A DNA stretch of 64,000 nt. Origin: Eubacterium sp. (GTDB lineage Bacteria; Bacillota; Clostridia; Lachnospirales; Lachnospiraceae). Location: the NCBI GenBank assembly GCA_021769425.1, contig JAETSX010000006.1, positions 62,001 to 126,000 on the forward strand. Direction: 5' to 3'. The first letter of the stretch is position 1. Every line of letters begins with the position of its first letter. Position numbers and translations under genes: made by a program. Under the pieces are notes generated by a model. That model was not told where the DNA came from and did not search any database. It worked only from the letters and a program-made list of their open reading frames with translations. This document shows, piece after piece, positions 1 through 56,432 of this stretch.

Positions 1-481
1 CAAAATAAATCTTTCCCACACTTGCCCGGTACACCCGGTCTTTCCATTCCACCTTAATATGATCGTTACGCTCTTCCTTGTCTAAAAGTTCCCTGGTAAT
101 GGATGGGAAAATAGTGGCGATGGACTTATGATATCCCTTGTCCTTTTCTGTAATGCGGGAAAATGCTTCATTCATCCACAAAATCTTACTGTTAAAATCC
201 AGCAGCGCATACGGGATCTCAAATTCGTTCAGCAGTTTCTTCTGAACCGTTCCATACTGGGTGGCAAAGCTGATTACCTCATTGCGCATGGCGGACTTAT
301 TGGCCAGGAAGATTCCCAGTACAATCAGAAAATACAATGCGGCAAATACAGAGACGCAGATTCCGGCAGTCCTGTCAAAATAGTATAAGGGGACATTCAT
401 CAGTACAAGTAAAACAGTCAGCATCAGGGGCCAGTACATATAATTCTTCAACGGGCCGCCCGGGTGGTTTTTTCTTTTCAT
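1..481 (-). CDS. gdpP: GdpP-type cyclic-di-AMP phosphodiesterase, N-terminal part
   Basis: I translated this reading frame directly. It is open through the left edge of the window, so only about 160 N-terminal residues are present. The protein starts with a basic segment, then two hydrophobic helices (about residues 15-32 and 40-60). A PAS-like segment follows (IPYALLDFNSKILWMNEAF and onward). Two helices plus PAS is the N-terminus of GdpP/YybT, which continues with a degenerate GGDEF and a DHH/DHHA1 domain that hydrolyses c-di-AMP; those parts lie outside. An in-frame TAA directly precedes the ATG, so the start is fixed. It has its own promoter, upstream at 581-609. Placement near rpsF-ssb-rpsR (normally followed by gdpP, rplI, dnaB in Firmicutes) supports the call. 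Confidence 0.8.
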   Translation of the reverse strand, partial: MKRKNHPGGPLKNYMYWPLMLTVLLVLMNVPLYYFDRTAGICVSVFAALYFLIVLGIFLANKSAMRNEVISFATQYGTVQKKLLNEFEIPYALLDFNSKILWMNEAFSRITEKDKGYHKSIATIFPSITRELLDKEERNDHIKVEWKDRVYRASVGKIYF

Positions 482-580
482 TTATTTTCCTACCTTTGTT
501 GTTCTCACTTATAGTTCAGGGTTCCGTTCTGCAAGGCCAGTGCAGGCATTTCTGTCTGCATTGCCCATTGCTTTCGTCAT

Positions 581-609
581 ATTATACCACTTCCTTGGAC
601 TTCTTACAA
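581..609 (-). promoter_or_regulatory. sigma-A promoter of gdpP
   Basis: On the minus strand, -35 TTGTAA (604-609) and -10 TATAAT (581-586) are separated by 17 nt, about 100 nt upstream of the gdpP ATG. It indicates that gdpP is transcribed independently of the exosortase operon before it. Confidence 0.7.
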
Positions 610-678
610 TAACCGTTTTCTGTCCTCTGTCCCTTACCGTTTTTCCAGAGTGATTGTTCACATGTCACTGTTCCGGGA

Positions 679-709
679 GGGGTTTCCGCACATTTTGTGC
701 AGAAACCCC
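679..709 (-). terminator. hairpin after the exosortase operon
   Basis: A 13-bp stem (GGGGTTTCCGCAC with GTGCAGAAACCCC, one mismatch) with a 5-nt loop lies 55 bp beyond the last gene of the operon. No U-tract follows on the minus strand, so it may be a weak or factor-assisted terminator, or an mRNA 3' end stabiliser. Confidence 0.4.
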
Positions 710-763
710 GAGTTTTCAGCGCAAAATCACACCTTTTGCGGTTTTCGCGCATCGCGGAGCGTA

Positions 764-2953
764 TTACCGGTCACGGAGTAAACTGTAACTTTCCAGATAC
801 TCCTGCAGAATATAATAAGACTGCTTCAGCCGCTCCCGATACCCGGGCTCCACCCATCCGTCCCAAGTGTATGAACCGCTTTTCCCGTCTGCTTCAAATT
901 GAATCTCATGTATGGATTCATAGGTAATTTCATCGTTGGCATACAAATCGGCAATGCGCATTTTTTCATTGGGTTTGGCAATATTCAAAAGCAGCCAGGG
1001 CAGCCGAACCTCTGTCACATTGCCCCTGATGCAGAAATCTGCCCGGGAATTGTATTCCGGAGACTGGGGATCTGCATTCCCATGGCGCAGCTTGCCGGTT
1101 TCTACCTGTTCCGTCTCCACCAATGTGCCGTCTGTCAGCAGCACCGGACGGTTCAGCATCAGATAGATGGGCGCAAAGGTATGATTTCCTGCATCCGCAT
1201 ACCCTTCCTTCACTTTTAACACTTCGTTGGAAGCATGCAGTCCGGTGGTATACAGCCAGTAATTCACATCATAATAAGGGTGCACCAACAGCCTGCTTTT
1301 TTCTTTCCCCTTGATTTCCAGTAAAAAATCCGCCCCGCCGTACTCCTCATTTCCCTGGTCTTCAATGGTATCTACGGCAATCTGCAGATTATCATTTTTG
1401 CCCCGGATCAGCAGATACACATAGGCTTCATCGCTTTTTACATACAGTTTTGTTTCCTCGTTTTCCAGTACAGGCTCCTCGCCTTCCCACTCCTCGTCCT
1501 TACCGTCCACAATGCACACTGCCGTCTCGCCGGGGTCAAAGGACAACAGCCCGAAAAACTGTTCGCTGGTCTGAACATCGCACCAGTAGGGCCGTACATC
1601 CGAATCTGTATAGTCCATGGTATTCCAGGTCCTTTTAAACCATTCATCCTGCCAGATAAACACAAAAGCCCCTGCACATTTCGTATCAATAATATCTGAA
1701 AGCATGGACACAATGGCGTTTCCCTGCTCCTCCTCTGTCAGCCCTCCCTGGTTGAATCCCGGTTCTTTGGCAAGATGGGTAATCCCTCTGGAAGCAGGCA
1801 CGCCAAACTCAGAGATTACCACCGGCATCGTATGATAGCTGTTCAAATCATTCAGATAATGTTTATAGGAATTGGGCGGATCATCCGCCAGCAATTCCGG
1901 CGCATAACGCATCATTTCCGGATAATAGGGATATACATGGTAAGATGCAAACATCCCTGCCTTAAATTCTGGCTTTGCCTTAATATGTTCCGCATCTACC
2001 GAAACTGCATCCTCCATCTCAGGATTGGGTTCTCCGGGATGAGAGAGCGGATCTGTCGTCACCCAGTTGGCAAACGATATGGGATGCTGCATCTGATACT
2101 GTTCCATCTCATAAGAAATGCAGGCATCCAGCCCGGAAGCGAGAAAAAACTCAAAGGGAGACGCATCCTCGGTAAACAGATACTCTCCCTCAAATACTTT
2201 CTTGTCCGGATTGGCGTCATTGGTGCCCATCACAAATTCCGGCTGCCATTCAATTCCCAAAATCCAGCCGCACAGATATTGGGATACATCCGCCGTATAA
2301 CTGCCGCTGGCATTGCCGGCCGCAGGCTCAATCACTGCATTTCCATGAACCACGTCCACAATAGTTCTGCACATTGCAATCCAGTCCTTTTCAATCTTTC
2401 CGTCTTCGGCATAGGCATCCTGAAGGCTGCTGATATCTTCTTCATTATTATAAACTCCCTGCATAAAATAAAGCGGAGACTCCGCCGTCTTATTGTATGT
2501 GGCCAGAGCATGATAAAATTCCGGCATTAAAATCGTATACACGCGGATGGTATCTGCATGCATTTCGCCGATCTGGCGGAACCATCTGAGATACTCATCC
2601 TCCGTGATTGCAAACTCGCCTGGAAACGCGCCTGGTTTTCCTGCACCGATATTCACGCCCACGGGCATCGTGTCCTGCCACCTGCCGTCCGCCCCATAAA
2701 CCTGAAATGTCTTTTCCCTGGTCCGAAAGGAATAATTCATCCCGCCTTCTTTGCACATGGGAAGGGTCTTCGCCTCTTCCCCGGACACATCAGAACCCTC
2801 TTTTGTTCCCTTTTCCGTTCCTTCCTTCGCCGGCTCTCTGCCTGAATCAACCGTCAGTTTGGGCTGATCCGAAGCGCACCCGCAGCACAGGCTTGCCGCC
2901 ATTGCAAACATCAAAACCCAACTGAATATCTTTCTTTTATGAAATCTCTGCAT
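764..2953 (-). CDS. lipoprotein with TIM-barrel glycoside-hydrolase-like domain and CBM9-like tail
   Basis: The start is placed at the ATG at 2953 (729 aa), which has GGAAGG about 7 nt upstream and opens a lipoprotein signal (hydrophobic run, then SLCCGC). The longer frame to 3058 has no visible ribosome site. The first 450 residues after the signal resemble a (beta/alpha)8 glycoside hydrolase. Conserved-looking acidic sites are GIEWQPE (acid/base candidate) and VISEFG (nucleophile-like), with HVYPYYPE and FVFIWQDEW as barrel strands. The tail carries DGKDEEWEG and beta-rich sequence, like the DGxxxDW repeats of the secreted protein encoded earlier in the same operon. No GH family is assigned with confidence. 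It is the last gene of the XrtG operon. A role in trimming or transferring the glycan made by the locus is inference. Confidence 0.6.
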   Translation of the reverse strand: MQRFHKRKIFSWVLMFAMAASLCCGCASDQPKLTVDSGREPAKEGTEKGTKEGSDVSGEEAKTLPMCKEGGMNYSFRTREKTFQVYGADGRWQDTMPVGVNIGAGKPGAFPGEFAITEDEYLRWFRQIGEMHADTIRVYTILMPEFYHALATYNKTAESPLYFMQGVYNNEEDISSLQDAYAEDGKIEKDWIAMCRTIVDVVHGNAVIEPAAGNASGSYTADVSQYLCGWILGIEWQPEFVMGTNDANPDKKVFEGEYLFTEDASPFEFFLASGLDACISYEMEQYQMQHPISFANWVTTDPLSHPGEPNPEMEDAVSVDAEHIKAKPEFKAGMFASYHVYPYYPEMMRYAPELLADDPPNSYKHYLNDLNSYHTMPVVISEFGVPASRGITHLAKEPGFNQGGLTEEEQGNAIVSMLSDIIDTKCAGAFVFIWQDEWFKRTWNTMDYTDSDVRPYWCDVQTSEQFFGLLSFDPGETAVCIVDGKDEEWEGEEPVLENEETKLYVKSDEAYVYLLIRGKNDNLQIAVDTIEDQGNEEYGGADFLLEIKGKEKSRLLVHPYYDVNYWLYTTGLHASNEVLKVKEGYADAGNHTFAPIYLMLNRPVLLTDGTLVETEQVETGKLRHGNADPQSPEYNSRADFCIRGNVTEVRLPWLLLNIAKPNEKMRIADLYANDEITYESIHEIQFEADGKSGSYTWDGWVEPGYRERLKQSYYILQEYLESYSLLRDR

Positions 2954-3038
2954 CTTTCTTCCTTCCAAATCCGTCGTTTCAACTCTGTCCCGTTTCAACC
3001 CTCTCAGGCCTGTCTTCTCAACTTGGGGCCTCCTCATC

Positions 3039-3521
3039 TTACCATTTTTCACTCTCATCGTTCATAATCTGATCCACCACATACTGCACCACGCCGGAAA
3101 TCCGCTCTGTCTGCTTTTTTCCAATCTGCTCGATAAAGTCCGGCTCGTTTCGGTGGCTGACAATATAGCTTCTGGTGGGCGTTTCGCTTCCCTCCACAGA
3201 AACCAGTTCTCCGCCGTGCTCCCGCAGCAATGTCTGAAGTTCCTCATTAAAGTGATCCGTCACATTTTCGATGGTGGGCACAATCAGATTAAAAGGCTCA
3301 ATCGTGTTCAGAATCTGATTCTGATATTTATCCAGATAACCCTCTATCAATGACTCAAAGGTACGGAATTCCACAAATTCCGTTCCGCTGACAATGATTG
3401 TAGTAATAAACTCCCAGGTATGGGGATGCGTCTGCCCCTGTTTTCCGTTGATAATAATATAGTGGTTCATATTCAGATACGATTTCAAACGATATTCCCG
3501 ATAAAGCTTTTCTTTCCTCAT
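3039..3521 (-). CDS. 6-pyruvoyltetrahydropterin synthase-like protein, exosortase-G associated (second copy)
   Basis: 160 aa. The start is the ATG at 3521, which overlaps the upstream stop as ATGA and implies translational coupling. The N-terminal region (NMNHYI, then THPHTWEF) has the spacing of the three zinc histidines of the QueD/PTPS fold (one His, then HxH). The product is longer and more divergent than true QueD, and none of the queuosine partners (queC, queE, queF) is nearby, so a pterin or deazapurine reaction cannot be assumed. PTPS-related proteins are known companions of XrtG in Firmicutes. Substrate unknown. Confidence 0.6.
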   Translation of the reverse strand: MRKEKLYREYRLKSYLNMNHYIIINGKQGQTHPHTWEFITTIIVSGTEFVEFRTFESLIEGYLDKYQNQILNTIEPFNLIVPTIENVTDHFNEELQTLLREHGGELVSVEGSETPTRSYIVSHRNEPDFIEQIGKKQTERISGVVQYVVDQIMNDESEKW

Positions 3522-4576
3522 GTGCCTGTCACCGCCTTCCAAAACTGTTCAAATTGCCGCTGATAACTTTCCGTATTATCTTCACAGTACAAATCTGCCA
3601 CGCCGCGTACCTCCCAGTTTTCCAAGGACTCAATAATCCTGCTGCTGACCTGCTTCTCATATCGGACAAAAATCAGCAGCACCCTCCTGTCATCCATGGA
3701 AAACCGCAGCGCACTGTTGTCCAAAACCACCTGCATATGCTCAAAAAATTCGTCCCGGGCCTCTGGCGTTTCTGTTTCAAATACTGCGAAATGCAGCGGA
3801 TGAGCCCCTCTTTCATCCAGAGTCCGTAAAAATTCGTCCAGCACCGTATGCTTAAATACACGTTTGCTGGCGCTAAAAGCATGTTCCCGCTTCAGCTGCT
3901 CATCCAATTGCTCCAGCTGCTGATTCTGCCAGATCACGCGTTCCTCCTGCCGGGCAATCCTGGCAGCCTGTCCGCTGATTTTTTTCGACATCACCATACT
4001 CAGAATAATCAAAAGGGCCAGAACCAGCGACAGAATAATAATAATGGAATTCCTGCATTCCAACAGAATATTATCCTCCAGAATCACCTTGTCATATGTC
4101 AGCAGGCAAATCCGGTACTGCTGGTTTCGCCAGTCAAAAATCATGCCGGAAGCAATAAACCGATCTTCATTCAGGTAAATAATCTGATGTCCCACCTGAT
4201 TTAACCCCAGACGGTTCAGAAAGGCGGCCGCCGAGTCGCTGGCGTAATAAGCGCCGTCCGTAAACCCTTTATAGCGGTTGGTTTCCGTAACGCTTTTTAC
4301 AAACAGAATGGAATCCTCTTTGCTGACCGTCCAATATCTGCTGGCCGTGGCATCCAGAGAACTGATAATGTCGGTAATATCCTTCTCCGTGGCGTCATCT
4401 CCCAGACGGTTAATTTCTTCCAGAACCACCTTAACGTAGCCGTCCTGCTCTGCTCCGTAAATCTCCAGAAACCTTGTCTCATAATTGTTCAATTGCCAGA
4501 TAATAAATACATCCGCTGCCATGGCAAAAAATACCACAAGAGCCGTTACAATGAAAAAATTAAATTTGCGTTTCAT
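3518..4576 (-). CDS. two-helix membrane protein with extracytoplasmic sensor-like domain
   Basis: 352 aa from the ATG at 4576; the first ATG at 4585 is too close to the AGGGA site. Helix 1 is at about residues 10-28. An extracytoplasmic domain of about 150 residues follows, then helix 2 (IIIILSLVLALLIILSMVM, about 180-198). Next come a coiled coil (RQEERVIWQNQQLEQLDEQL) and a cytoplasmic domain of about 120 residues. This is the architecture of a sensor kinase or diguanylate cyclase, but I see no H-box, HATPase or intact GGDEF. The segment ending MDDRRVLLIF could be a degenerate GGDEF beta-hairpin, at low confidence. It sits between the GT2 and PTPS-like genes, so it may regulate or scaffold glycan synthesis. 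Confidence 0.5.
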   Translation of the reverse strand: MKRKFNFFIVTALVVFFAMAADVFIIWQLNNYETRFLEIYGAEQDGYVKVVLEEINRLGDDATEKDITDIISSLDATASRYWTVSKEDSILFVKSVTETNRYKGFTDGAYYASDSAAAFLNRLGLNQVGHQIIYLNEDRFIASGMIFDWRNQQYRICLLTYDKVILEDNILLECRNSIIIILSLVLALLIILSMVMSKKISGQAARIARQEERVIWQNQQLEQLDEQLKREHAFSASKRVFKHTVLDEFLRTLDERGAHPLHFAVFETETPEARDEFFEHMQVVLDNSALRFSMDDRRVLLIFVRYEKQVSSRIIESLENWEVRGVADLYCEDNTESYQRQFEQFWKAVTGT

Positions 4577-4588
4577 ATGCTCCATTCC

Positions 4589-5953
4589 CTATTCGTAATT
4601 GACAGCTTTCCGCGCTCTCTTCAGCAGATTCAGCGGTTTTTTCGCCTCAGCCTTCAATTCCGCCTGAAAATCCTTCCGCTCGTCTGTCAGGGTGCGGGTC
4701 TTCCATGCGCTGTCCGTATTGATGCTGTTAATCACACCTGCAAACCGGATAAAAAACACTGCAAAATTAAAAAACGGAAGCAGCGGCGCCACATACCAGT
4801 GTTTACGGTAGTACCGTTTCAGCTCATCAAATTCCTTCAAGAAACCCACGGTGGAAAAATAATACAGATACCCGCTGATAATATATAGCAGGAAAATAAC
4901 GCCTGTGGAAATCAGAATCACCTTCGCCGAATAGTTCATGCACATCAGACAAATCAACGCCAGATACCAAATCAGCCGGGGAAATGCAAAGGTATGGTCA
5001 TACAACAAAGTCCGGACCATCACATTGGAAAATGTTTTACGCACTTTCAGATCTCTTTCCAAAAATTGATGGGACACCTCCAGGCTTCCCCGCTGCCAGC
5101 GCTGCCGCTGGGTGTAAAGCTTATTCACGCTTTCTATTGGGTCTACGCAGAAAATAGCATTTTCACAGATCTCCACCCGGATACGCTGGAGAAAACGCAT
5201 TTGAAATGTAATATTGGTATCCTCGCAAATGGTATCTGTATTGTAGAGCTGGGATTTCAGCACGGCAGACTTGCGGAATGCGGAAAAAGCGCCGGAAAGG
5301 GTGTAAATGGAGTTTGTCTCCGAAGCATAATTCCGGCCTGCCAAGAATGCCTGGGCATATTCCATAAACTCCATTTTGCGGAGAAGCCTTGCAAAAATAC
5401 CCTGATACTTCTCAATCATTTCCGGCATGGTGAGAATTGCGCCGGTCATACAGTCCACATCCTGACAGCTCTCAAATTTGCGCACCATATTGCTGATGGC
5501 ATGAGGCTCAAACTGCCCGTCGCTGTCCACATGGATGATGTATTTTCCGTCCGCATTAAACAATGCCAGATTCAGCGCACGGGATTTTCCCTGTTTGGCG
5601 TTCAGCCACTGCATCAACAAATCCGGATACAATTCCTGGCACCTGGCATAAACCTGAAAAGAATTATCTTTTCCCTGATTATTCACCAGAAAAATCCGCA
5701 TTTTATCATTGGGATAATCACTGTCATTGATGGAGCGGATACATTCCTGCAGGGAGCCCTCAGAATTGTACACCGGAATAATCAGAGTAATCTCCGGCCA
5801 GAGCACAGGATCCTCATATTTATGGGGAAACAGCTTTTTCTTAATCAGAATTGCCACACTTCCTATAGAGGGAATAATTTCCATCACCAGCGGAATGATA
5901 ATCCAGGCAGCCCAAAACAAGATTGAATTGAAAAAATTATTTATCACTGTCAT
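4589..5953 (-). CDS. GT2 processive-type glycosyltransferase, exosortase-G associated
   Basis: 454 aa. It has an N-terminal membrane helix and a GT-A domain with TLIIPVYNSEG, substrate DxD (HVDSDG, D143 and D145), acidic catalytic pair CED (E244-D245) and QRQRW (Q282-W286). Two or three C-terminal helices follow (about 325-375 and 405-425). DxD, ED and QxxRW together mark the processive cellulose/hyaluronan/poly-GlcNAc synthase class. No PilZ domain is present. The start overlaps the end of xrtG by 17 bp. A family of GT2 enzymes is known to travel with XrtG, and this fits it. The sugar donor cannot be read from sequence. Confidence 0.85.
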   Translation of the reverse strand: MTVINNFFNSILFWAAWIIIPLVMEIIPSIGSVAILIKKKLFPHKYEDPVLWPEITLIIPVYNSEGSLQECIRSINDSDYPNDKMRIFLVNNQGKDNSFQVYARCQELYPDLLMQWLNAKQGKSRALNLALFNADGKYIIHVDSDGQFEPHAISNMVRKFESCQDVDCMTGAILTMPEMIEKYQGIFARLLRKMEFMEYAQAFLAGRNYASETNSIYTLSGAFSAFRKSAVLKSQLYNTDTICEDTNITFQMRFLQRIRVEICENAIFCVDPIESVNKLYTQRQRWQRGSLEVSHQFLERDLKVRKTFSNVMVRTLLYDHTFAFPRLIWYLALICLMCMNYSAKVILISTGVIFLLYIISGYLYYFSTVGFLKEFDELKRYYRKHWYVAPLLPFFNFAVFFIRFAGVINSINTDSAWKTRTLTDERKDFQAELKAEAKKPLNLLKRARKAVNYE

Positions 5954-6536
5954 ATCGGAAGCTTCCCACCTTCTGTTTGATAATCTGCGGTTTCGTAAAC
6001 ACGTAAAAATATAGTATCACAGACAGCCCGTAGAACACAAACCGCCCGATAAAGGTATGGGCAATATGATACAAATCCACACCGCCGAAATAAATAATCA
6101 CGGAAATCACTGTTATTCGCAGGGCATTTGCCAGCGCCATTGCAACCACTCCCAGAACCCCCACATAGATCCGTTCATATACCGTATACACCCGATAAAA
6201 CATCAGCAGGGAAAGATATGCGATAATCTCAATAATCCCGGAGCACTCAAAATCAATTTTCAGTGAAATTACCCCTGCCGCTGATTCTATAAAAATAACG
6301 CCGTATTTATAATGCGCGCTGTAAATATCCCCGATTTTCCCGGGAAGACCTGCCAGAAGCGCCACAATCCTGGCCAAAGGCTGGGCAAGGATCGGCTGCA
6401 GAAACACCAGCATCAGAACAAAAGCTCCCGTACTTCCCACAAGAAAATGCCAGAAATTCAGTTTACTCTTATTAAGCACACGGAGAAGAAACAGCCATAT
6501 TGCCAACCCCGCCAAACCTGCTATATATTTTATCAT
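5937..6536 (-). CDS. xrtG: exosortase XrtG (membrane cysteine transpeptidase-like sorting enzyme)
   Basis: 199 aa, almost wholly hydrophobic with about six to seven helices. The exosortase/archaeosortase catalytic triad is present in order: Cys98 in FECSGI, Arg140 in ANALRIT, His160 in AHTFIGR. Exosortases are thought to cleave C-terminal sorting signals (motif, helix, basic tail) and pass the protein to a cell-surface acceptor; the Gram-positive XrtG subgroup is small and experimentally obscure. Its neighbours (GT2, PTPS-related proteins, large membrane protein, secreted protein with helix plus basic tail) are the usual XrtG companions. It is separated from the next upstream gene by 4 bp. 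Confidence 0.9.
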   Translation of the reverse strand: MIKYIAGLAGLAIWLFLLRVLNKSKLNFWHFLVGSTGAFVLMLVFLQPILAQPLARIVALLAGLPGKIGDIYSAHYKYGVIFIESAAGVISLKIDFECSGIIEIIAYLSLLMFYRVYTVYERIYVGVLGVVAMALANALRITVISVIIYFGGVDLYHIAHTFIGRFVFYGLSVILYFYVFTKPQIIKQKVGSFRYDSDK

Positions 6537-6540
6537 ATGG

Positions 6541-9000
6541 TTACCCCGCTTCCTTTTCAGACTTCTCTGACCGTTTCCGCCGATACAGAGTAAATACCGC
6601 CAGCAGAATCAGTCCCGTCAGGCTGACCAGCGTTCCGCCTTTCCGGTAAGGATGGGTAAAAGAAATCACAGTGGTTCCTGACTGGATATAGGTCAGATGA
6701 TTCTTTCCGTAAATCTTCCGGTTCGCCGCAAAACTGTCATGCCAGGCAAGGCCCGTATTAATATCATTTTCCTCTGTAATGAGCGTGATACTGTCCTGCT
6801 TATACTGAATTGTATACGGTATTATCTCACGCTTGGGCAGTTCATCCGAACTCAAATCCATGGCATGGCTCAAAAGCTTCCCCACGCCTTCATCCTGCGT
6901 CAGACTGTAGTAATAAGTCAGATTCAGGCCAATCATCACAATATTGTCATTTTCTACTGTTCCAAAAAACGGCAGCTCCAGATTGCCATCTTTCACCATT
7001 CCCCAGACATCATGCAAACCGTTTACATACACTGTGCTCCATTCCCGGTGACCATCGGGAAACAAATTGGTGTCCAGAACGCCGTCAATGGTATTCAGTT
7101 CGGGGTAGCCCTGGGAAAAAGAAACATCATGGCAGACTGCACCCAGAAAGCTCTGCTCTCTGCTGCCTCTGTCATCCGGAATTCCATCCGCCGCAATGAC
7201 AATCCGAACCCCCGCTTCACTTAAATCCACAATTAATTTTTCCGCATATGCCTTGTCATCATACGTAAATCCTGCCAGATAAATCAAATCATACTTCTGC
7301 AAATCTTCAAAAGTAAAATCATTCAGATTCCCGCTCTCTGTCTCCTCCACTGCCGGAAACTGGCGGGAAATCCCGGGCGCATCAGATCCGATGCCAATGG
7401 CCCTGTACTCCGCCGACGTTCCCCAATTTCCCTCAGCGGCCGCCAATTTATAAAACCGGTAGTTTTCATTAAAATCCACCAGTTCATAACCGACTCTGTT
7501 TGCCGCAATATCCAGACTGCGGACCGGATGCTTCCCGGGATTACTGATAAAATCCAGTTGAATGACAACTGTATCATTTCCAAGCTCCATACATCGGTCA
7601 AAGAGATAAAGATAATTTCCCTCTTCCAAGGCCCGATCTATCTGCTTAAAATTCGTCACGGTTACAGCCGCTTCTTCTGCCGCGCCATACGAGGTGGCCA
7701 CCGGCTCCCCATAACCGGTCATCAGATACGCGCTCATAGAACCAAGGCTGCTCTCATCCAGCAATGCCATCCTCTGCTCTGTCATCTCTTTTGCCTCATC
7801 AATCAATGCGGCGTCTGAATAATATGCCATCCGCTCTTCCGGCGCCGCCCCAGAGCGATTCCCCAGAATCAGCGGCAAAGAAGGCAGGGTATCCAGAACC
7901 AGCAGCCCTGCAAACAGCACAATCCAGCCTCGCTTCAAGGTATCCCAGACCAAAAATCCCAGCAAAATCATACACAATCCAATGGAAATAAAGCGAAGCA
8001 TCTGAAAATATTCCCCGCCCGGCAATATTTTCAATAACAGATAAAATGTCTCCGAACTGAATGCCAGAATCAGCATCCCGGTCCAAAATCCGGACATGGA
8101 TTTCTTTTTACTCAAAAAAATTCCAAAAACAGCCAGCAAAGCCGCAGCCAGTCCAAAATAAGCATCCACGCATCCCCGGTGCATTCGGGCGGCAGGATTA
8201 ATGGACAAAAATATACTCTGAAAGAAATCTGCCAGTCTCTCCAAACTGTTTGCAGAGGCTGTGCCGCCGGTCAAAGAGGGAATCAGCCAGAAGCCTGCCA
8301 CCAAATATCCCAGCGCTATTGCCAGAAATGCATACACCTGCTGCCGGCACTGATGATAAATCACCATATTTACAATAAAATACACGGTAAAGGCAGTTAA
8401 AATCATTCCCGCATAACTGGAATGACATAATACAAACAATGCAAAACAAACGGAAATCTTCGGCAAAAGATGCCAATTGCCTTCTTTCAGATAACTGTAT
8501 ACCCAATACACAAAAAGAGGAAGTATTGCAATACAGACAGATTTCGCCAAATCTCCCTCATAAAACAGCGTGCTTAAATTGTTGGGCATAAAAAACCATA
8601 AAACACCTAAAAACGCCCCGAAATAAGGACGTTCCAACTGAAATCCCACATATAGCCATGAAACTGCTCCTACAAAGAAGAGAATCATAACAAAAACAAG
8701 GAAACCGTCCATGGAACTGCCGCCCAGCAATTGGCAGCCGGCCAGCAGGTAAATTGGAATCGGAGCACAGTAACGCATCATCTCCATGCCGTTATACCAA
8801 AGAAAATCAAATGCGGGCCAGTAATCTCCCTTCTGAACCGCCCGATATAACACATCGCCCTGATAAAGATGTCCCAGCGTATCTTTTCCGCTGGGATAAA
8901 CGCCGCTGTTTCCCACAACCGCTGCAATTCCATATGCAGCCAACGCATAAAGAATGGGCATTAATAAAATCAGATAATACGACTTCCTTCTGTTTTTCAA
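6541..9000 (-). CDS. large polytopic membrane protein (PTPS-related / GT-C-like), exosortase-G associated
   Basis: The likely start is the TTG at 9000 (819 aa), with AGGAGG 8 nt upstream; the ATG at 9021 lies before that site. About residues 1-380 form ten or more helices. The first extracytoplasmic loop carries GKDTLGHLYQGD, reminiscent of the acidic loop of GT-C polyprenol-dependent glycosyltransferases. Residues of about 390-770 are soluble and extracytoplasmic, with a stretch (DLIYLAGF, GVRIVIAADG, ENDNIVMIGLN) that looks like a glutamine-amidotransferase-type Rossmann fold without an obvious catalytic Cys. A final helix with an RRKRSEK tail closes it. The family is annotated as PTPS-related membrane protein, although it has no PTPS fold that I can see. 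Confidence 0.65.
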   Translation of the reverse strand: MKNRRKSYYLILLMPILYALAAYGIAAVVGNSGVYPSGKDTLGHLYQGDVLYRAVQKGDYWPAFDFLWYNGMEMMRYCAPIPIYLLAGCQLLGGSSMDGFLVFVMILFFVGAVSWLYVGFQLERPYFGAFLGVLWFFMPNNLSTLFYEGDLAKSVCIAILPLFVYWVYSYLKEGNWHLLPKISVCFALFVLCHSSYAGMILTAFTVYFIVNMVIYHQCRQQVYAFLAIALGYLVAGFWLIPSLTGGTASANSLERLADFFQSIFLSINPAARMHRGCVDAYFGLAAALLAVFGIFLSKKKSMSGFWTGMLILAFSSETFYLLLKILPGGEYFQMLRFISIGLCMILLGFLVWDTLKRGWIVLFAGLLVLDTLPSLPLILGNRSGAAPEERMAYYSDAALIDEAKEMTEQRMALLDESSLGSMSAYLMTGYGEPVATSYGAAEEAAVTVTNFKQIDRALEEGNYLYLFDRCMELGNDTVVIQLDFISNPGKHPVRSLDIAANRVGYELVDFNENYRFYKLAAAEGNWGTSAEYRAIGIGSDAPGISRQFPAVEETESGNLNDFTFEDLQKYDLIYLAGFTYDDKAYAEKLIVDLSEAGVRIVIAADGIPDDRGSREQSFLGAVCHDVSFSQGYPELNTIDGVLDTNLFPDGHREWSTVYVNGLHDVWGMVKDGNLELPFFGTVENDNIVMIGLNLTYYYSLTQDEGVGKLLSHAMDLSSDELPKREIIPYTIQYKQDSITLITEENDINTGLAWHDSFAANRKIYGKNHLTYIQSGTTVISFTHPYRKGGTLVSLTGLILLAVFTLYRRKRSEKSEKEAG

Positions 9001-9036
9001 TGCCCATTCCTCCTGAATCATTTCTTTTTCGTAAAA

Positions 9037-11412
9037 TTATACCGCTGCTGGTATTAATTCATCTTTTTTTCGCTTTTTATACCATAACACAATGCCAACG
9101 GTAACCATGCAGACTGCCACTCCCGCAACCGGCCCTGTGGAAGCGCCTGCGGTGAAAATCCACTCCTGCCCAATCCGTCCGTACTGTGCAGCAATCTCCT
9201 TCAGACTGGTTGCATCCACACCCAGCTTCTCTGCAATCATCGGCAGCTCCAGATAATATTCCATTTCATCCTTCCCGTTTGTTCCGATGGTCATAATCAT
9301 TTTCCCGTAGATTTTATCCATATCATTCAGGTTACTGATATTTTGGGATTGCCCCCAGGCGTCCCGGGAAACTATATGATATTCGTATGTACCTTCCGGC
9401 AGGCCTGCCCGCTTGGGATTCCAATTAATCGTTCCGCTGGAGTCTGCCGTTACAAACCTTGGATAAAAAACCATGCTCTGATCTACGGAACCGCTTTTCA
9501 GACTTTCCGCGCTTTGATTAAATGCAATGGTAATGGCCTCTGTAAATTCCTGCCCGGCTTCCTGCAGATGCTGGGGCATATTCGTCACCACATGCCCATA
9601 CAGTTTCCCATCGCTGAAATACAGTGCTCCTTTGGCGTCAATCTGAGATTCCTGGGAGCCTGCTGTGGCATACTGGATCGTGCTGTGCCCGTAATCTTCC
9701 CAGTCCTGGTACTGGCCGTCAAAGTTAATTCCGTCAAAAAGATTTTCCAGATTATTTCCGCTGTCCGGCTGCAGATTCACAATACTGCCAATCAAAGGTT
9801 CTCCCTGATAAAGCCCAAAGGAAAGGCTTTCTCTGTACTTGGGAAGCTGATCTTTTGGAATGGCAATTTCCCATTCGCTTCCCACATAGGCAACCATGGC
9901 GCCGTTTACGCCTCTGACCTCCGGCGCTGTAGTTAACTGGATATCTGTCTCGTATCCCAAATCAGAGGTAATGGCAAACTTCCCGTTAGAATGGGTTCCC
10001 GCACCGGATGCATTGCTATCCTTGCCGTCTCTGATATAAATATAGAACCAGTCCCCGTCAAATACTGCCGCAGCCTGTGACAAACAACCGGTATGGGCGC
10101 TGTTTGGACAGGATGCATCTGTTTTAGCCACTGCCTTCCAATCCGCATAATTCCCATCAATGCTGATTCCTCCATAGACAGCCGGAAACTCTTCCTCGAT
10201 GGAATCACCGTTTAACTGCTCAATCTCTCCGGATGATATTGCAGTTCCCCCAAAAGTAAGGGTAAACTCCGCACTATGGAAAAAACTTACCGGAACTGCA
10301 AGTTCCACTGCATAAGGCCCCGGATTATTTCCGTGGGCTTCGTTCATTACCGCCGCTTCCGCTCCGGGAACATCGCCGAAGTAAGCATTCTTCACTTCTG
10401 CTCCTCCCTGCCATGCATTGACAGAAATTCCATTGCTTATGTCCGATACGCCGTCGGGATATGCAAACTGAAATTTATTTCTTGTGAAGTTATAATCCCA
10501 CTCTGTACTGGCGCTTCCTGTAAAACCAAGATACAGCATACTGCCGTCCGGGGAAAATGCCGCTTTCCAATAATCCACGCCGGAACCGGAACGCTCTGTC
10601 ACACCTGCCCAGTCAGACAGACTGCCGTCAATTGAAATACTGCCGCTTACGCTGTTATGAGCCGCAGAAGCTGCAACCGGATCTTCTCCTTTGGCTTCTT
10701 CCTTATTCTGTTCTTCTGTTTCTCCTGCCATCTGATCAGACTTGGAATCCTTATCTTCTGTATTATCACTGTCTGCTTCTGCGCCCTTTTCGCCATCCGG
10801 ATTTGCGCTTTCCCCGGCCGGATTCTGGACATCCTCTGTTCTTTCCGCCTGATCGCCGTCAGAGTTTTGCTGATTCCCGGCTTCTCCGGCCTGGCTGCCT
10901 GTTGGATTCTGGGCGTCTCCGCCAGCTTCACTGCCTGTTGGATTCTGGGCGTCTCCGCCAGCTTCACTGCCTGTTGGATTCTGGGCATCTCCGCCAACCT
11001 CACTGCCCGTTGAATTCTGGGCGTCTCCGCCAGTTTCACTGCCTGTCGGATTCTGGATGTCCCCGCTCCTTTCCGCCTCACTGCCTGCTGGATTCTGAGT
11101 GTCTCCGCCAACCTCACTGCCTGCCGAATTCCGGACGTCTCCGCTTCCTTCAATTCCGCTGTCCGGATTCCGCTGTTCTCCCGCCGGATTCTGACCGGAT
11201 GTCCTGGCATCCCTTGCCTGGCTGCCGTTAAGATCCTGCTGTTCTCCCGCCGGGTTCTGTTCCGGCGTCTGAGAATTGCCTGTTCCAACATTCTTCACAT
11301 TCTGAGACACATCATAACCTGATTCTGCCGCTGCGACAGGCAATCCTGATAATAACAGAGATACGGACAGTAACCCTGCCGCGGCTCCTCTGACAATCTT
11401 TCTTACTTTCAT
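9037..11412 (-). CDS. secreted repeat protein, candidate XrtG substrate
   Basis: 791 aa with AAGGGAGG before the ATG. It has a classic signal peptide ending LPVAAAES. Residues of about 35-215 are low complexity, built on a roughly 12-residue repeat (NPTGSEAGGDAQ and variants) and rich in Gly, Asn, Ser and Asp. Three beta-rich modules follow, each opening with a DGxxxDW motif (SIDGSLSDWAG, SIDGNYADWKA, NFDGQYQDWED), as in CBM9-like carbohydrate-binding domains. The C-terminus is a Gly/Ser/Thr-containing turn, one helix (about 763-780) and a KKRKK tail: the tripartite form of an exosortase sorting signal. I recall a Firmicute sorting domain (Firmicu-CTERM) being linked to XrtG but cannot verify the match here. 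Confidence 0.7.
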   Translation of the reverse strand: MKVRKIVRGAAAGLLSVSLLLSGLPVAAAESGYDVSQNVKNVGTGNSQTPEQNPAGEQQDLNGSQARDARTSGQNPAGEQRNPDSGIEGSGDVRNSAGSEVGGDTQNPAGSEAERSGDIQNPTGSETGGDAQNSTGSEVGGDAQNPTGSEAGGDAQNPTGSEAGGDAQNPTGSQAGEAGNQQNSDGDQAERTEDVQNPAGESANPDGEKGAEADSDNTEDKDSKSDQMAGETEEQNKEEAKGEDPVAASAAHNSVSGSISIDGSLSDWAGVTERSGSGVDYWKAAFSPDGSMLYLGFTGSASTEWDYNFTRNKFQFAYPDGVSDISNGISVNAWQGGAEVKNAYFGDVPGAEAAVMNEAHGNNPGPYAVELAVPVSFFHSAEFTLTFGGTAISSGEIEQLNGDSIEEEFPAVYGGISIDGNYADWKAVAKTDASCPNSAHTGCLSQAAAVFDGDWFYIYIRDGKDSNASGAGTHSNGKFAITSDLGYETDIQLTTAPEVRGVNGAMVAYVGSEWEIAIPKDQLPKYRESLSFGLYQGEPLIGSIVNLQPDSGNNLENLFDGINFDGQYQDWEDYGHSTIQYATAGSQESQIDAKGALYFSDGKLYGHVVTNMPQHLQEAGQEFTEAITIAFNQSAESLKSGSVDQSMVFYPRFVTADSSGTINWNPKRAGLPEGTYEYHIVSRDAWGQSQNISNLNDMDKIYGKMIMTIGTNGKDEMEYYLELPMIAEKLGVDATSLKEIAAQYGRIGQEWIFTAGASTGPVAGVAVCMVTVGIVLWYKKRKKDELIPAAV
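10890..11150 (-). repeat. 36-bp coding tandem repeat in the candidate XrtG substrate
   Basis: Imperfect units of 36 bp (12 codons), two adjacent ones nearly identical around 10908-10980. They encode the NPTGSEAGGDAQ stalk. Copy number is likely to vary between strains. Confidence 0.75.
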
Positions 11413-11437
11413 ATAAGTCCTCCCTTACAAGTTCATA

Positions 11438-11791
11438 TTAAAAAGTTTCTTCTGCGATTGCATAAACGCGCAAAGGCGTCTCACTGATCTCAAAACGGGC
11501 AAATCTCCAATGCTGCCGCTCCAGAGCCTCTTTCACCTTTGAATAAAAGACCTCTCCTAAATGTTCAATACTGGTATCTCCTTCAAACTCAGGAAAATCA
11601 TTGAGATACTGGTATTGATAAGGGCCGAACACCTGCTCTAACACAGAGTCCATGCTGGCAAATTCCAAAAAATCTTCCGCGATATGCCTTGCCACAATCT
11701 CAATCTCGATTAAATGCTGATGCTTGTGCTCTTCCTTTCCGTCAAAGCTGTGCTGCATGCATAAACGATACTTCAAACGATGGTATTTCAT
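11438..11791 (-). CDS. 6-pyruvoyltetrahydropterin synthase-like protein, exosortase-G associated (first copy)
   Basis: 117 aa, a usual size for QueD/PTPS. The ATG at 11791 is preferred (AGG about 8 nt upstream); the ATG at 11797 is possible. It has the zinc-ligand pattern CMQHSF then HKHQH, the basic strand RLKYRL, and a conserved-looking C-terminal ETPLRVYAI where PTPS enzymes carry their substrate glutamate. It is the first gene of the XrtG operon, directly after the promoter. The second PTPS-like gene near the end of the operon is divergent from it, so they may form a heteromer or act on different substrates. Confidence 0.65.
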   Translation of the reverse strand: MKYHRLKYRLCMQHSFDGKEEHKHQHLIEIEIVARHIAEDFLEFASMDSVLEQVFGPYQYQYLNDFPEFEGDTSIEHLGEVFYSKVKEALERQHWRFARFEISETPLRVYAIAEETF

Positions 11792-11848
11792 CTGCATCTA
11801 CCTGCCCATACTCACGACTATGCCTGATGTCATGTTTTTGTGAGTTAT

Positions 11849-11878
11849 ATTATATCACACCCTTTTTTACGCTTTCAA
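11849..11878 (-). promoter_or_regulatory. sigma-A promoter of the XrtG operon
   Basis: On the minus strand, -35 TTGAAA (11873-11878) and -10 TATAAT (11849-11854) are spaced 18 nt apart, about 55 nt before the first gene. No other convincing promoter is seen down to 764, and the genes overlap or lie within 90 bp, so it probably drives all eight. Confidence 0.65.
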
Positions 11879-11952
11879 TGTCAATACTGCGCATTTCAAC
11901 CAGGATTTTCCACATTTCGCAGGTAGTTTCTGGCATATCGTCCAAATTAGAC

Positions 11953-12145
11953 CAAAGTGGGCAAGCCCACCTCAACTTCCCTTGCACCTCAATCCCCGGG
12001 GATTGCACACTTTGCGCGCCGAGCACGGTCCCTTTAGCGACATCATACCTCTCGTGCGAGTGCGCATAATATTTTTATATCATAGAAAAGTCATAGACCT
12101 TAGCGCTTCACAGTAACAGGGGCTTTCCTATGATATAAAAAAGAC
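11953..12145. repeat. structured dispersed element, copy A1 (three hairpins)
   Basis: It holds hairpin 1 (AATCCCC/GGGGATT at 11991-12004, extended by GCAA/TTGC), a conserved core (about 12012-12066) and hairpin 3 (TTTTATATCATAG at 12073-12085 with its exact complement at 12128-12140, plus 4 bp after a mismatch). Copies A2 and A3 share the core and the pairing but not the stem sequences. The right arm of hairpin 3 overlaps the left arm of the rpsR terminator. Confidence 0.7.
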
Positions 12146-12179
12146 CAACTATCCGAAGATAATTGGTCTTTTTTATATC
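12132..12179. terminator. bidirectional terminator of rpsF-ssb-rpsR
   Basis: It has 17-bp perfect arms (GATATAAAAAAGACCAA and its complement) around a 14-nt loop, with A/T tracts inside the stem so that U-runs follow on both strands. It lies 36 bp beyond rpsR. Confidence 0.85.
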
Positions 12180-12214
12180 CTATATTATAATAAAATCCTG
12201 GACTATTCCAGCGC

Positions 12215-12478
12215 TTAATCTGTCACATAGGGCATCAGAGAAATATGTCTTGCTCTCTTGATTGCAACAGTAAGAGCTCTCTGGTGCTTTGCACAGTTCC
12301 CGGTAATTCTTCTGGGAAGAATCTTTCCTCTCTCAGAGATATATCTCTTTAACTTATTGGTATCTTTATAGTCAATCACATTATCTTTGCCGCAGAATAC
12401 ACAAACCTTTTTTCTTCTGCGCATTCCGCCTCTTCTCTTCATGGGAGAATCGCCTCTGTCTGTTTTATTATAAGCCAT
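12215..12478 (-). CDS. rpsR: 30S ribosomal protein S18
   Basis: 87 aa. It carries the S18 signature ([42 protein letters not shown] in two parts, HISLMPYV). It binds S6 and 16S rRNA in the platform of the small subunit. AGGAGGTAAATAAA precedes the ATG. It is third in the rpsF-ssb-rpsR operon, 17 bp after ssb. Confidence 0.97.
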
Positions 12479-12495
12479 TTTATTTACCTCCTGTT

Positions 12496-12939
12496 CTAAT
12501 TAAAGGGTAATTCTTCGTCAATCCCGTCCGGAATGTTCATAAATCCATCCCCGACTGCCGCACTGGGAGCAGGTCTGCCCACAGGCTGAAATCCTCCTGC
12601 CTGACTGTCGCTTGCGGCCTTACTCTCCGCGAATTCCTGCTCCTCCACAACAACATCTGTGGTATAGACCTTCTGCCCTTCCTGGTTGGTATAGCTTCCA
12701 GTCTGAATTCTTCCGGTTATGGCAATCTTGATCCCTTTGTGGAAATACTTTTCCGCAAATTCACCGGCTCTTCCAAAAGCAACGCAGTTGATAAAATCTG
12801 CTGTCTGCTGATCGCTGTCACGGCGGAACCTTCTATCTACTGCCAATGTATATCTTGCAACCGCTGTTGCGGATTCTCCCTGGGAGTAACGCACTTCGGG
12901 ATCTCTGGTTAATCTGCCCATCAGTATAACCTTATTCAT
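12496..12939 (-). CDS. ssb: single-stranded DNA-binding protein
   Basis: 147 aa. An N-terminal OB fold ([36 protein letters not shown]) is followed by a flexible Gln/Gly/Pro-rich linker. The acidic C-terminal tip ends EELPFN, the usual docking peptide for replication and repair partners. It lies between rpsF and rpsR as in other Firmicutes, with a GAGGAG ribosome site. Confidence 0.95.
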
Positions 12940-12956
12940 CTAATCTCCTCTTTCTA

Positions 12957-13253
12957 TTACGCCTCATCTTGTTTAACGCACAAGAACCGAAGCACATTGT
13001 CCATAATACGCACGCGCTTCTCTAACTCTGCCGGACAATCTGCCGGTGCATCGAACTGGATAAAGTAATAGAACCCTTCACGCATCTTCTGAATCTCATA
13101 AGCAAGTCTCTTCTTGCCCCATTCATCCACGTTGGTTATCTGGCCGCCGAAACGTGTGATATACTCTTTCGCTTTCTCTACCACTGCGGCTCTTTCTTCA
13201 TCCTCGATTTTTGCATTAACAACAAGAGCTAATTCATATTTGTTCATGCTCAT
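12957..13253 (-). CDS. rpsF: 30S ribosomal protein S6
   Basis: 98 aa from the ATG at 13253, which has a full AAGGAGGT 5 nt upstream; the longer frame to 13298 runs into the leader. Motifs MNKYELALVV, WGKKRLAYEIQK and GFYYFIQFDAP identify S6. It heterodimerises with S18, encoded two genes on. A hairpin with a CCG after it (13270-13296) may be the S6:S18 autoregulatory site. Confidence 0.96.
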   Translation of the reverse strand: MSMNKYELALVVNAKIEDEERAAVVEKAKEYITRFGGQITNVDEWGKKRLAYEIQKMREGFYYFIQFDAPADCPAELEKRVRIMDNVLRFLCVKQDEA

Positions 13254-13269
13254 CGTACCTCCTTCTGGT

Positions 13270-13296
13270 CTCCGGCCCTCAATCGCTGTTGAGAGC
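13270..13296 (-). promoter_or_regulatory. candidate S6:S18-binding leader of rpsF
   Basis: The transcript has a 7-bp stem (CTCTCAA with TTGAGGG, including one G-U) with a short loop, followed at once by CCGGAG, just before the ribosome site. Published S6:S18 leader motifs are a hairpin with an unpaired CCG mimicking the rRNA site. The match here is by eye. Confidence 0.4.
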
Positions 13297-13307
13297 AAGG
13301 ATAAATT

Positions 13308-13354
13308 ATTATATCACGAGATTTCATCTTATCACAACTTGTTTGTATTTTCAA
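13308..13354 (-). promoter_or_regulatory. promoter region of rpsF-ssb-rpsR
   Basis: There are two overlapping candidates. One is TTGAAA (13349-13354), 17 nt, TAAGAT (13326-13331). The other is TTGTGA (13332-13337), 18 nt, TATAAT (13308-13313). Confidence 0.6.
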
Positions 13355-13376
13355 GGGTTTTATCCAAAAAATATTA

Positions 13377-18464: not shown

Positions 18465-18595
18465 TTCTCCTCCTGTCTTCCTATGTGTTTGTTTTAGCAT
18501 GCAGTAACTTTCTGTGTCCTTTTTGACGCTTCTTGATTCACCAATTCCCTCCCTTTTTATACATCTTTGGCTATATATTATATAGTAATAGATAT

Positions 18596-38775: not shown

Positions 38776-38863
38776 CTTATTACACTCCTTTCTCACACCA
38801 TCACAACCATATGTTGTGGAAACCTACCATATCCCAATAGCGCCATTCTTCTTTTCTCTTCTG

Positions 38864-55157: not shown

Positions 55158-56405
55158 ATGAGAAAGAAATTAGTAGCAATGTTAATTCTTGCAATGACAG
55201 GAACCATGTTCTTAGGCGGCTGCGGTTCAGACGGCGGCAACAGCGGCGGCAGCGGAGACGGCAAAAGCGGCGGCAAAGTTAAAATCCGTTTTGCATCCTG
55301 GGACGAAGCAGAGGATGTGGACGCACAGCAGGCAGCCGTAGACAAGTTCAACGATGCACACGACGACATTGAAGTAACCCTGGAAGCATACGGCGGAGAG
55401 TTCGACACCAAAATCAGCGCCGGAATGGGTTCTAACGATATGCCGGACGTGATGTACATGTGGAACTACCCCGCATACTCTCAAGGATTGGAGCCTCTGG
55501 ATTCCTACATTGAGAAAGAAGGAGATGACTACAAGAAGAACTTCTACGATACCCTCTGGAATTATAATTCCTATGACGGAAGCACCTACGGCATCCCAAT
55601 CGGATTTACCACACATGTACTGTTCTATAACAAAGACATTTTTGCAGAAGCAGGAATCGACGAGCCTACCAATGACTGGACCTGGGAGGACGTAAAGGCG
55701 GCATCTAAGACTATCACTGAGAAATGCGACGGCAAGAAGGGATTTTCCTTCCAGATGAAGCCGGACCCCTATGACTATGAAATGTACCTGTGGAGCAACG
55801 GGACAGCTTATGTCGATGAAAACGGCCAATTAGAAGGCAACCTGAACTCCGATAAAGCCAAAGAGGTATTCCAGATGTTCCAGGATATGGAGAAAGACGG
55901 CTCCGCAGTTGCAACAGAAAAGAGCGGCACTGACGAATTCCGCGCCGGCAACACCGGAATGTACGTTTACGGCTCCTGGTCCATCAACACCTTAAAAGAA
56001 GACGGCGTAAACTTCGGCGTGGTAAATATCCCGTCCTTCGGAAGCCAGCCTTCTATCAGTATCTTAAGCTCCTCCGGAATCTCCATGTCCAAGGACAGCA
56101 AGAACAAAGAAGCTGCATGGGAATTCATTAAATTCTGGACCAGCGAAGAGATGAACAAGGAAAGAATCGGCATGGAACTTCCGGTACTTTACTCTGTAGT
56201 AGAATCGGAAGGCATTATGGAACAGCCAGAATACGCACCTTTCTATACCATGCTGGAACAGAGCTCCGACTATACGCCATCCAATTTTATTTACGAGAGC
56301 TGGTCTGAATTGTCAGAAAACCTTTCTCTTTCCTTTGAGCGGGTATTCAACCCCAGCGCAATGGAAAATGTATCTGATGTACTGGACGAAGCTGCACAGC
56401 AGTAA
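55158..56405 (+). CDS. sugar ABC transporter substrate-binding lipoprotein
   Basis: 415 aa. Lipoprotein signal with lipobox FLGGCG, then a Gly/Ser linker. Family-1 binding protein: VKIRFASWDEAED, ISAGMGSNDMPDVMYMW, GIPIGFTTHVLFYNKDIF, NTGMYVYGSWSINTL. GGAGGAGG ribosome site. The first gene of a five-gene carbohydrate operon. The ligand is probably an oligosaccharide, given the GH2 and GH65 partners. Confidence 0.93.
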   Translation: MRKKLVAMLILAMTGTMFLGGCGSDGGNSGGSGDGKSGGKVKIRFASWDEAEDVDAQQAAVDKFNDAHDDIEVTLEAYGGEFDTKISAGMGSNDMPDVMYMWNYPAYSQGLEPLDSYIEKEGDDYKKNFYDTLWNYNSYDGSTYGIPIGFTTHVLFYNKDIFAEAGIDEPTNDWTWEDVKAASKTITEKCDGKKGFSFQMKPDPYDYEMYLWSNGTAYVDENGQLEGNLNSDKAKEVFQMFQDMEKDGSAVATEKSGTDEFRAGNTGMYVYGSWSINTLKEDGVNFGVVNIPSFGSQPSISILSSSGISMSKDSKNKEAAWEFIKFWTSEEMNKERIGMELPVLYSVVESEGIMEQPEYAPFYTMLEQSSDYTPSNFIYESWSELSENLSLSFERVFNPSAMENVSDVLDEAAQQ

Positions 56406-56432
56406 AGTTACCCCGATAGGAGGGATTGAGGG

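Follow-up and report, generated by a model that had tools for sequence, protein, structure and literature searches.

A 64,000-nucleotide stretch of the gut bacterium Eubacterium sp. (contig JAETSX010000006.1, positions 62,001 to 126,000; hereafter the window) carries, between rpsR and gdpP, a block of eight genes that includes exosortase G (XrtG). This block is a further copy of the XrtG system catalogued in NCBIfam. We hold the chances to be about even that it encodes a one-substrate membrane machine, which would make and export a surface polysaccharide and finish one dedicated partner protein. An earlier interpretation made without database searches (the sequence-only reading) had described eight same-strand genes at 764-11878 and seen in them a polymer synthase combined with a protein sorter. 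The list of open reading frames (ORFs) of the window contains all eight on the minus strand, adjoining or overlapping in an operon-like manner, and we judge the proposed combination a fair reading. The features are as follows (PTPS, 6-pyruvoyl tetrahydropterin synthase; GT2, family 2 glycosyltransferase):

11438-11797, minus strand: PTPS1, one domain of PTPS fold that retains the zinc histidines but not the catalytic Cys/Asp
9037-11412, minus strand: CTERM, secreted Firmicu-CTERM protein, predicted XrtG substrate
6541-9021, minus strand: MEM, 826-residue PF10131 membrane protein with a large C-terminal part
5937-6536, minus strand: XrtG, exosortase G with Cys98/Arg140/His160
4589-5953, minus strand: GT2, XrtG-associated, processive-type
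3518-4585, minus strand: SENS, sensor-like membrane protein; layout assigned by eye, no family
3039-3542, minus strand: PTPS2, domain of PTPS fold that retains the zinc histidines and the Glu but not the catalytic Cys/Asp
764-3058 (ORF; probable coding sequence 764-2953), minus strand: TIM lipoprotein, variable accessory gene
10895-11144, minus strand: tandem repeat of 36 bp, encoding a portion of the CTERM N-terminal linker
9037-9150, minus strand: CTERM sorting tail (STGP motif, hydrophobic stretch, basic end)
11878-11849, minus strand: predicted block promoter, TTGAAA-18-TATAAT with TG before the -10 element
12175-12136, minus strand: rpsR terminator hairpin, 18 bp with U tract, parting the ribosomal operon from the block

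Membership of the system was assessed with family models, the scores being given in bits against the curated cut-off of each model. XrtG reaches 176.1 bits with TIGR03110 (cut-off 102.75), GT2 607.9 with TIGR03111 (363.95), PTPS1 and PTPS2 71.8 and 117.3 with TIGR03112 (69.35), CTERM 108.5 with TIGR04145 (50) and MEM 400.5 with PF10131 (26.4); all four NCBIfam models of the XrtG system are therefore above cut-off in the block. These scores bear out the exosortase, the glycosyltransferase and the two PTPS-like proteins of the sequence-only reading, as does the conservation of the triad that it had called intact: Cys98, Arg140 and His160 are invariant in 20/20 sequences (the window and its 19 nearest relatives). 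XrtG also matches the exosortase/archaeosortase signature TIGR04178 (51.3 bits; cut-off 23), and scores only 16.8 bits with the EpsH-type model TIGR02602 (105.55). On [Eubacterium] eligens plasmids, XrtG, CTERM, GT2 and a PTPS gene are annotated together, as in the window; the window block differs from these catalogued loci in its two PTPS genes, SENS, the TIM lipoprotein and its rpsR-gdpP address. The earlier reading of the locus as a system is borne out by the scores of XrtG and its partner models, but the system itself was already catalogued.

The genes of the block keep company over a wide range of relatives. A bacterial genome scan gave 19 near loci; 18 carry the label Lachnospiraceae, Eubacterium or Petralouisia, and the last is an Agathobacter. 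Seven genes follow one fixed order, PTPS1-CTERM-MEM-XrtG-GT2-SENS-PTPS2, in 17/19; the two remaining loci (L012, L015) lie on 5-7 kb contigs and were left out of the gene-order count. The eighth gene, which had been taken to belong to the set, is variable and not core: the TIM lipoprotein is found in 12/19 near loci, once cut by a contig end, with a remnant in L020. Four near loci carry instead a GT2 with 41-42% full-length identity to the GT2-GtrA protein of L050; it occupies the same place in L013, L014 and L021 and lies upstream in L024, and none of the 19 loci has both genes. Proteins of this GT2-GtrA type (L046, L050, L053) combine PF00535 with PF04138, an arrangement known from polyprenyl-phosphate sugar synthases.

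Two broader samples extend this picture. XrtG occurs in 16 of 250 family genomes; a CTERM protein lies within 2.6 kb of xrtG in all 16 (15 above cut-off, one at 36 bits), and the 234 XrtG-less genomes yield one weak match (G133). TIGR03112 is above cut-off in 16/16 XrtG genomes and in 0/234 others, where four weak matches were seen. PF10131 exceeds 80 bits in 15/16, the sixteenth locus being on a 7.7-kb contig, and in 1/234 others (G224), with weak matches in 17 further genomes of the family. In the phylum sample of 398 genomes, 13 match the XrtG model, 9 of them above cut-off; one is another exosortase (G377), two are G000 and G180, and ten represent distant XrtG. As L018 and L055 are apparently the same genome, and the window and L056 likewise, counts over both sets are not fully independent.

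CTERM is the predicted substrate of XrtG, and no second one was found in the host genome. In this genome (97% complete) one XrtG, one CTERM protein and two TIGR03112 proteins were found, all inside the block; a second CTERM row in the search is a repeat match within the same ORF. The sequence-only reading had rightly noted repeats in this secreted protein but had missed its sorting domain. By eye, CTERM consists of a signal peptide, a low-complexity linker of about 200 residues, three IDGxxxDW modules and the sorting tail, which runs from AGxSTGPxxG through a transmembrane segment to a Lys/Arg-rich end; AG and STGP are invariant in 18/18 near sequences, the window included. Sorting of many substrates was considered and set aside: outside the xrtG loci, the family sample shows further CTERM-model matches below cut-off only (38.4 bits for a second ORF of G066, 21.7 for G133). 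A sugar-binding, CBM9/DOMON-like nature of the modules, suggested by the IDGxxxDW motif, was set aside: Pfam and profile comparisons gave nothing solid for it, the one high profile pair (98.8%, 34 columns) being an overlap of two cuts and not evidence, and a PDB sequence search with CTERM returned noise.

The PTPS domains differ from the related enzymes at the catalytic residues. Both window proteins match PF01242, the family of QueD and 6-pyruvoyl tetrahydropterin synthase, and share with these enzymes the zinc histidines and the anchoring Glu, but not the catalytic Cys and Asp. We compared 43 domains in Escherichia coli QueD numbering, in which Cys27 and Asp70 are the catalytic residues and three histidines the zinc ligands. 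The set comprises the two domains of the window, the PTPS proteins from five near loci (out of 19) and every hit at E 1e-3 among the ORFs of L041-L054 and L082-L093. His31 and His33 are kept in 42/43 in the script alignment; His16, the first zinc ligand, is offset by the aligner and was recognised by eye in 42/43, L045 being unclear. Glu110 is kept in 40/43 and replaced by Asp in the other three. Cys27 and Asp70 occur in 0/43 each, and His71 aligns in two. This loss led us to reject a QueD-type enzyme, and the domains are probably not enzymes of the QueD family. The QueD model TIGR03367 (cut-off 89.25) gives 24.6 bits for PTPS1 and 19.6 for PTPS2, and no QueD above cut-off was found in the host genome or in 20 relatives. 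In the PDB, PTPS1 finds one weak PTPS match (2oba, E 0.059) and PTPS2 noise. From the residue loss together with the fusions described below we infer that the domains would serve as binding or assembly parts.

Fusions tie the parts of the block to one another. PTPS1 is fused to MEM in 5/16 Lachnospiraceae loci (L044, L045 with a degenerate PTPS part, L046, L050 and L053), and a PTPS domain forms the MEM N-terminus in 7/10 distant loci (L082, L084-L089). At the place of SENS, a PTPS2 domain ends a membrane protein in L041 (15 bits with the SENS model) and in L044 (no SENS match; layout by eye). In L045, a YfhO-family membrane protein (PF09586, 602 bits; 5708-8308) stands between GT2 and PTPS2, the place of SENS. 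GT2 of L048 (10435-13311) carries a fused sulfatase-family domain (PF00884), which could be a phosphoglycerol or phosphoethanolamine transferase serving the polymer.

The CTERM module takes part in fusions as well. It is joined to MEM, with a PVPxLG motif, a transmembrane segment and a basic tail, in the complete ORFs of L082, L088 and L089 and in a partial ORF of L090; it is fused to the XrtG N-terminus in L083, L084, L086 and L087; and in L085 a CTERM-like module is a separate protein, Cys and tail both being kept. L090 and L091, whose ORFs are cut or odd, were left out of the counts of complete fusions. The three forms are homologous to one another (E 1e-17 to 1e-43).

Cys98 is replaced by Asn in exactly the four CTERM-XrtG fusions, which retain Arg and His, and all other rows have Cys. 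This count covers 29 rows; leaving out L092 (G377, 23.6 bits, excluded from residue counts and tree) and taking the window a single time gives 27, of which 23 have Cys and four Asn. At the fusion junctions, PFPxxxK stands where others have PIPILG or PVPxLG and continues directly into the first XrtG helix, so that neither the motif glycine nor the basic tail remains. The four fused XrtG form one clade with members down to 56% identity; its support against L085 is 85/84, below the starred level of the tool, and becomes 100/99 when rows outside the compared groups are ignored. For the XrtG part of the fusions, three pairs give ratios of nonsynonymous to synonymous substitution rates (dN/dS) of 0.10-0.14, L086 being omitted since its length differs. 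The Cys-less XrtG with its attached module is thus under purifying selection and presumably works. In plasmids, a search with the fused XrtG found an E. eligens match that covers the XrtG half alone.

The simplest reading of these data is that Cys98 would act on the CTERM tail, that CTERM would be the sole substrate, and that the sorted module would end at the site of XrtG and the synthase. The cut by XrtG in a C-terminal sorting tail is itself a prediction, to which the coupled loss of Cys and tail is indirect evidence.

We propose the following working scheme for the one-substrate machine. GT2 would polymerise the chain and export it, while MEM would add or transfer sugar on the outer side of the membrane, the donor probably being linked to a lipid. 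PTPS1, for MEM, and PTPS2, for the SENS/GT2 side, would be non-catalytic ligand-binding or assembly domains, and SENS would relay an outside cue to the SENS/GT2 side. CTERM would be secreted and stay attached by the C-terminal tail until XrtG, using Cys98, cleaves it at the (S/T)G motif; the sugar-binding-like modules would then remain at the membrane beside the synthase, as a machine part and not as general cargo. Gene content, order, co-occurrence, one-to-one pairing in the sample, fusions, residue conservation and the coupled loss of Cys and tail are the observations underneath; what we infer from them are all the reactions catalysed, the nature of ligand and polymer, and how CTERM is linked in the end.

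Several points weigh against this scheme. The coupling of Cys and tail amounts to one independent instance, since the fused proteins look like one event, and the Cys-less clade may have acquired another function. In the four MEM-CTERM loci, Cys and tail are both retained although the module is already tethered; the cut must therefore do more than place the module at the synthase, and this lineage favours a chemical role for it, such as ligation. The kinship of the distant modules with that of the window is weak by sequence and rests mainly on gene position and layout: with TIGR04145 (cut-off 50), four of six distant proteins score 15.5-19.4 bits and those of L086 and L088 give no match, and profile comparison with the window modules yields at most 26%. 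The distant XrtG of L089, L090 and L091 score 94-98 bits, below the 102.75 cut-off. Finally, MEM is only a probable glycosyltransferase, of the GT-C type according to the clan of PF10131.

The retained Cys and tail of the MEM-CTERM fusions, where no tether is needed, fit ligation better than anchoring. XrtG could accordingly be a transpeptidase that joins the cut C-terminus of CTERM to the GT2/MEM polysaccharide or to a lipid-linked sugar, giving a protein-polysaccharide conjugate, a possibility that we view as rather doubtful. Against it, no ligation product is known. The fused clade, moreover, is still under selection without its Cys. XrtG does travel with a processive-type GT2 and usually with a MEM-type protein in the loci examined, and a link between sorting and exopolysaccharide has been proposed for EpsH/PEP-CTERM (PMC1569441).

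It is unlikely that XrtG, like archaeosortase A, exchanges the CTERM tail for a lipid, the polysaccharide genes modifying or requiring the anchored protein. The match to TIGR04178 given above agrees with such an activity, and in Haloferax processing by ArtA accompanies C-terminal lipid attachment (PMC7157517). However, no phospholipid-synthesis gene was seen among 20 scanned proteins of the loci and their neighbours (most neighbours being unscanned), and it is glycosyltransferases that recur at the loci. That the genes are merely linked and have separate jobs, the PTPS proteins for instance acting in cofactor synthesis, is very improbable: gene order differs among lineages and the eighth gene is swapped, but the near-perfect co-occurrence, the repeated fusions and the absence of catalytic residues from the 43 PTPS domains compared speak against it.

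Elements of the one-substrate machine and of ligation or lipid attachment can be combined in a more tentative picture, which as a whole we would not expect to hold in full. XrtG would be as much a synthase subunit as a protease; its sole substrate would be a sugar-handling module built into the polysaccharide synthase, which the cut would join to the growing glycan or the lipid carrier of this glycan; one clade would have fused the module to XrtG and made XrtG a selected Cys-less pseudo-exosortase; and the paired PTPS domains would be a new class of ligand receptors, possibly for cyclic di-GMP (c-di-GMP) or a pterin, or a ring-forming scaffold, controlling the synthase.

The remaining parts of the block were characterised to differing depth. 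In GT2, the motifs DSD (143-145), ED (244-245) and QRQRW (282-286) are invariant in 20/20; we take DxD, ED and QxxRW to be the processive GT2 signature of the PgaC/IcaA, cellulose synthase and hyaluronan synthase type. The call of a processive-type enzyme made from the sequence holds, and the score with the PgaC/IcaA equivalog TIGR03937 is 117 bits (cut-off 422.3). In the loop 45-51 of MEM, Asp47 is kept in 19/20 and His51 in 18/20. A PDB sequence search found no relatives for MEM or the TIM lipoprotein and only noise for SENS, and among curated families none is above cut-off for SENS or the TIM lipoprotein.

SENS, by eye, has a transmembrane segment, an extracellular part of about 125 residues, a second transmembrane segment, a coiled coil and a small cytosolic domain. 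The earlier description as sensor-like holds for this membrane layout, but a sensor call beyond it is without support. An origin of the cytosolic domain from GGDEF looked plausible by eye but is not supported by model and hhalign comparisons: a small GGDEF model that we built gives a weak E of 0.89, the hhalign probabilities are 0.1% for the window type, 1.8% for a mixed set and 14% for position-equivalent proteins, and PF00990 in one position-equivalent protein (E 0.025) is below cut-off. L023 was left out of the SENS alignment, because the start choice gave a false short ORF.

For the TIM lipoprotein, the alignments with relatives mostly begin at residue 31-42, in two cases at 16, and a GGAAGGAAG stretch lies ahead of the ATG at 2953, so that 2953 is probably the true start. 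Glu235 in GIEW and Glu382 in SEFG are invariant in 12/12, and the protein ends in a C-terminal DGxxxEW module; a glycoside-hydrolase-type barrel is possible. Glycoside hydrolase (GH) clan A has no match to the protein itself, and a weak GH113 match (E 0.019) was obtained for the homologue in L084. Homologues (530 and 532 bits) stand beside a second PF10131-like protein near the XrtG genes in L084 (1964-7025) and L087 (14709-19501).

Transcription of the block was considered next to its boundaries. The promoter-like site at 11878-11849 has 11/12 consensus matches and is the top-scoring one in 1-13500, and the hairpin at 12175-12136 behind rpsR, followed by a T-run, has -22 kcal/mol and a z of -6.6, with 0/200 shuffles as stable. 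On these two grounds a single promoter and one transcript for all eight genes are likely; the shared promoter of the sequence-only reading is thus backed by the best site preceding the block, but a common transcript is only likely. gdpP has its own promoter-like site at 609-581. An Rfam scan of 1-13500 gave no match above the gathering score, hence no known riboswitch there.

The block is an accessory element at a reused address within the genus, as shown by its carriers, by gaps that are empty or otherwise filled, and by divergent blocks after rpsR. XrtG is present in 21/29 genomes of the genus and gdpP in 29/29; four of the eight genomes without XrtG are at least 90% complete. Four of these eight non-carriers (L095, L096, L100, L104) have rpsR and gdpP 76-194 bp apart. 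In L094 the interval is 0.9 kb and contains PTPS1 residues 2-19 together with TIM pieces, which we read as a deletion scar; in L097 and L099 rpsR was not found near gdpP. The XrtG-less L098 (1624-10314) has VTC, DUF4956, CotH, a TIM-like protein (33% identity), HEAT and a family 2 glycosyltransferase between the two genes, apparently a different polysaccharide-like block at the same address; its TIM homologue matches GH72 below cut-off (E 8e-4).

In the carriers G255 and G256, the XrtG block that follows rpsR is divergent, with 49-50% identity. That of G256 (L103) lies between rpsR and gdpP, shows matches to only the first 42 GT2 codons and none to MEM, and is apparently a decayed copy. Both rpsR upstream and gdpP downstream are seen in 11/19 near loci, whereas in the family sample neither gene was found within about 10 kb per side (less at contig ends) of the remaining 14 Lachnospiraceae loci. 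The earlier claim of an accessory block in a conserved site therefore applies within the genus, but the rpsR-gdpP address was seen only there and in near relatives.

Known systems offer several parallels. Work by Haft from 2012 probably treats the XrtG models. EpsH/PEP-CTERM shares with the block a Cys/Arg/His membrane enzyme, a C-terminal tail of motif, transmembrane segment and basic end, and polysaccharide genes; it is Gram-negative and has a median of 8 substrates per genome (PMC1569441), against one found for the window XrtG in a monoderm. In Lactiplantibacillus plantarum, an XrtG system of CTERM, Xrt and two XrtG-associated glycosyltransferases is over-expressed at the transcript level in interferon-inducing, self-aggregating strains (PMC12854382). 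That evidence is transcript correlation only; the part covered holds no xrtG mutant, and the word PTPS is absent from the main text (PMC12854382). Among the matches listed in a literature search over titles and abstract starts of open-licence papers, nothing concerned XrtG function, fused XrtG or Cys-less exosortases, which is weak evidence of absence.

On the Lactococcus lactis conjugative plasmid pBV60 (L107, 4413-10691), a same-strand run comprises diguanylate cyclase, EAL, CTERM, xrtG, GT2, PTPS and TIGR03766. Relative to the window, a TIGR03766 glycosyltransferase takes MEM's place and the diguanylate cyclase and EAL genes lie upstream; the cyclase has an intact GGDEF motif (one record). 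Over 28 genome stretches and L024, three ORFs match our small GGDEF model and none adjoins xrtG. The Lactobacillus acidophilus gts operon has a PgaC/BcsA-like GT2, a small partner protein in the membrane and a nucleotide receptor without catalytic activity, and raises exopolysaccharide (PMC6123363). Its receptor is a degenerate EAL protein and no exosortase is mentioned in the part covered; the parallel is functional only. Control of the block by c-di-GMP, on this analogy, is a lead only.

Elsewhere in the window, a 1707-residue surface protein that combines leucine-rich repeats of the BspA type with Big_2 and fn3 domains (13377-18500, minus strand) lies directly upstream of rpsF, and a 1604-residue protein with Listeria-Bacteroides repeats is encoded at 33982-38796 (minus strand). 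The plus strand codes for a 550-residue AAA-ATPase_like and PDDEXK_9 protein (48390-50042) and, within 55158-61290, for an extracellular solute-binding protein (55158-56405) and, near it, a glycoside hydrolase family 2 protein of the lacZ type (58210-61290).

The catalytic-residue loss and the fusions of the PTPS domains, and the loss of Cys98 and tail in the CTERM-XrtG fusions, are new as far as we know. They raise the interest of the locus because they make its function testable: a vague idea of sorting plus glycan is narrowed to one substrate and one catalytic residue, with a Cys-less control provided by nature. The comparison also indicates that PTPS-fold domains may be non-catalytic parts of polysaccharide synthases in gut and lactic acid bacteria.

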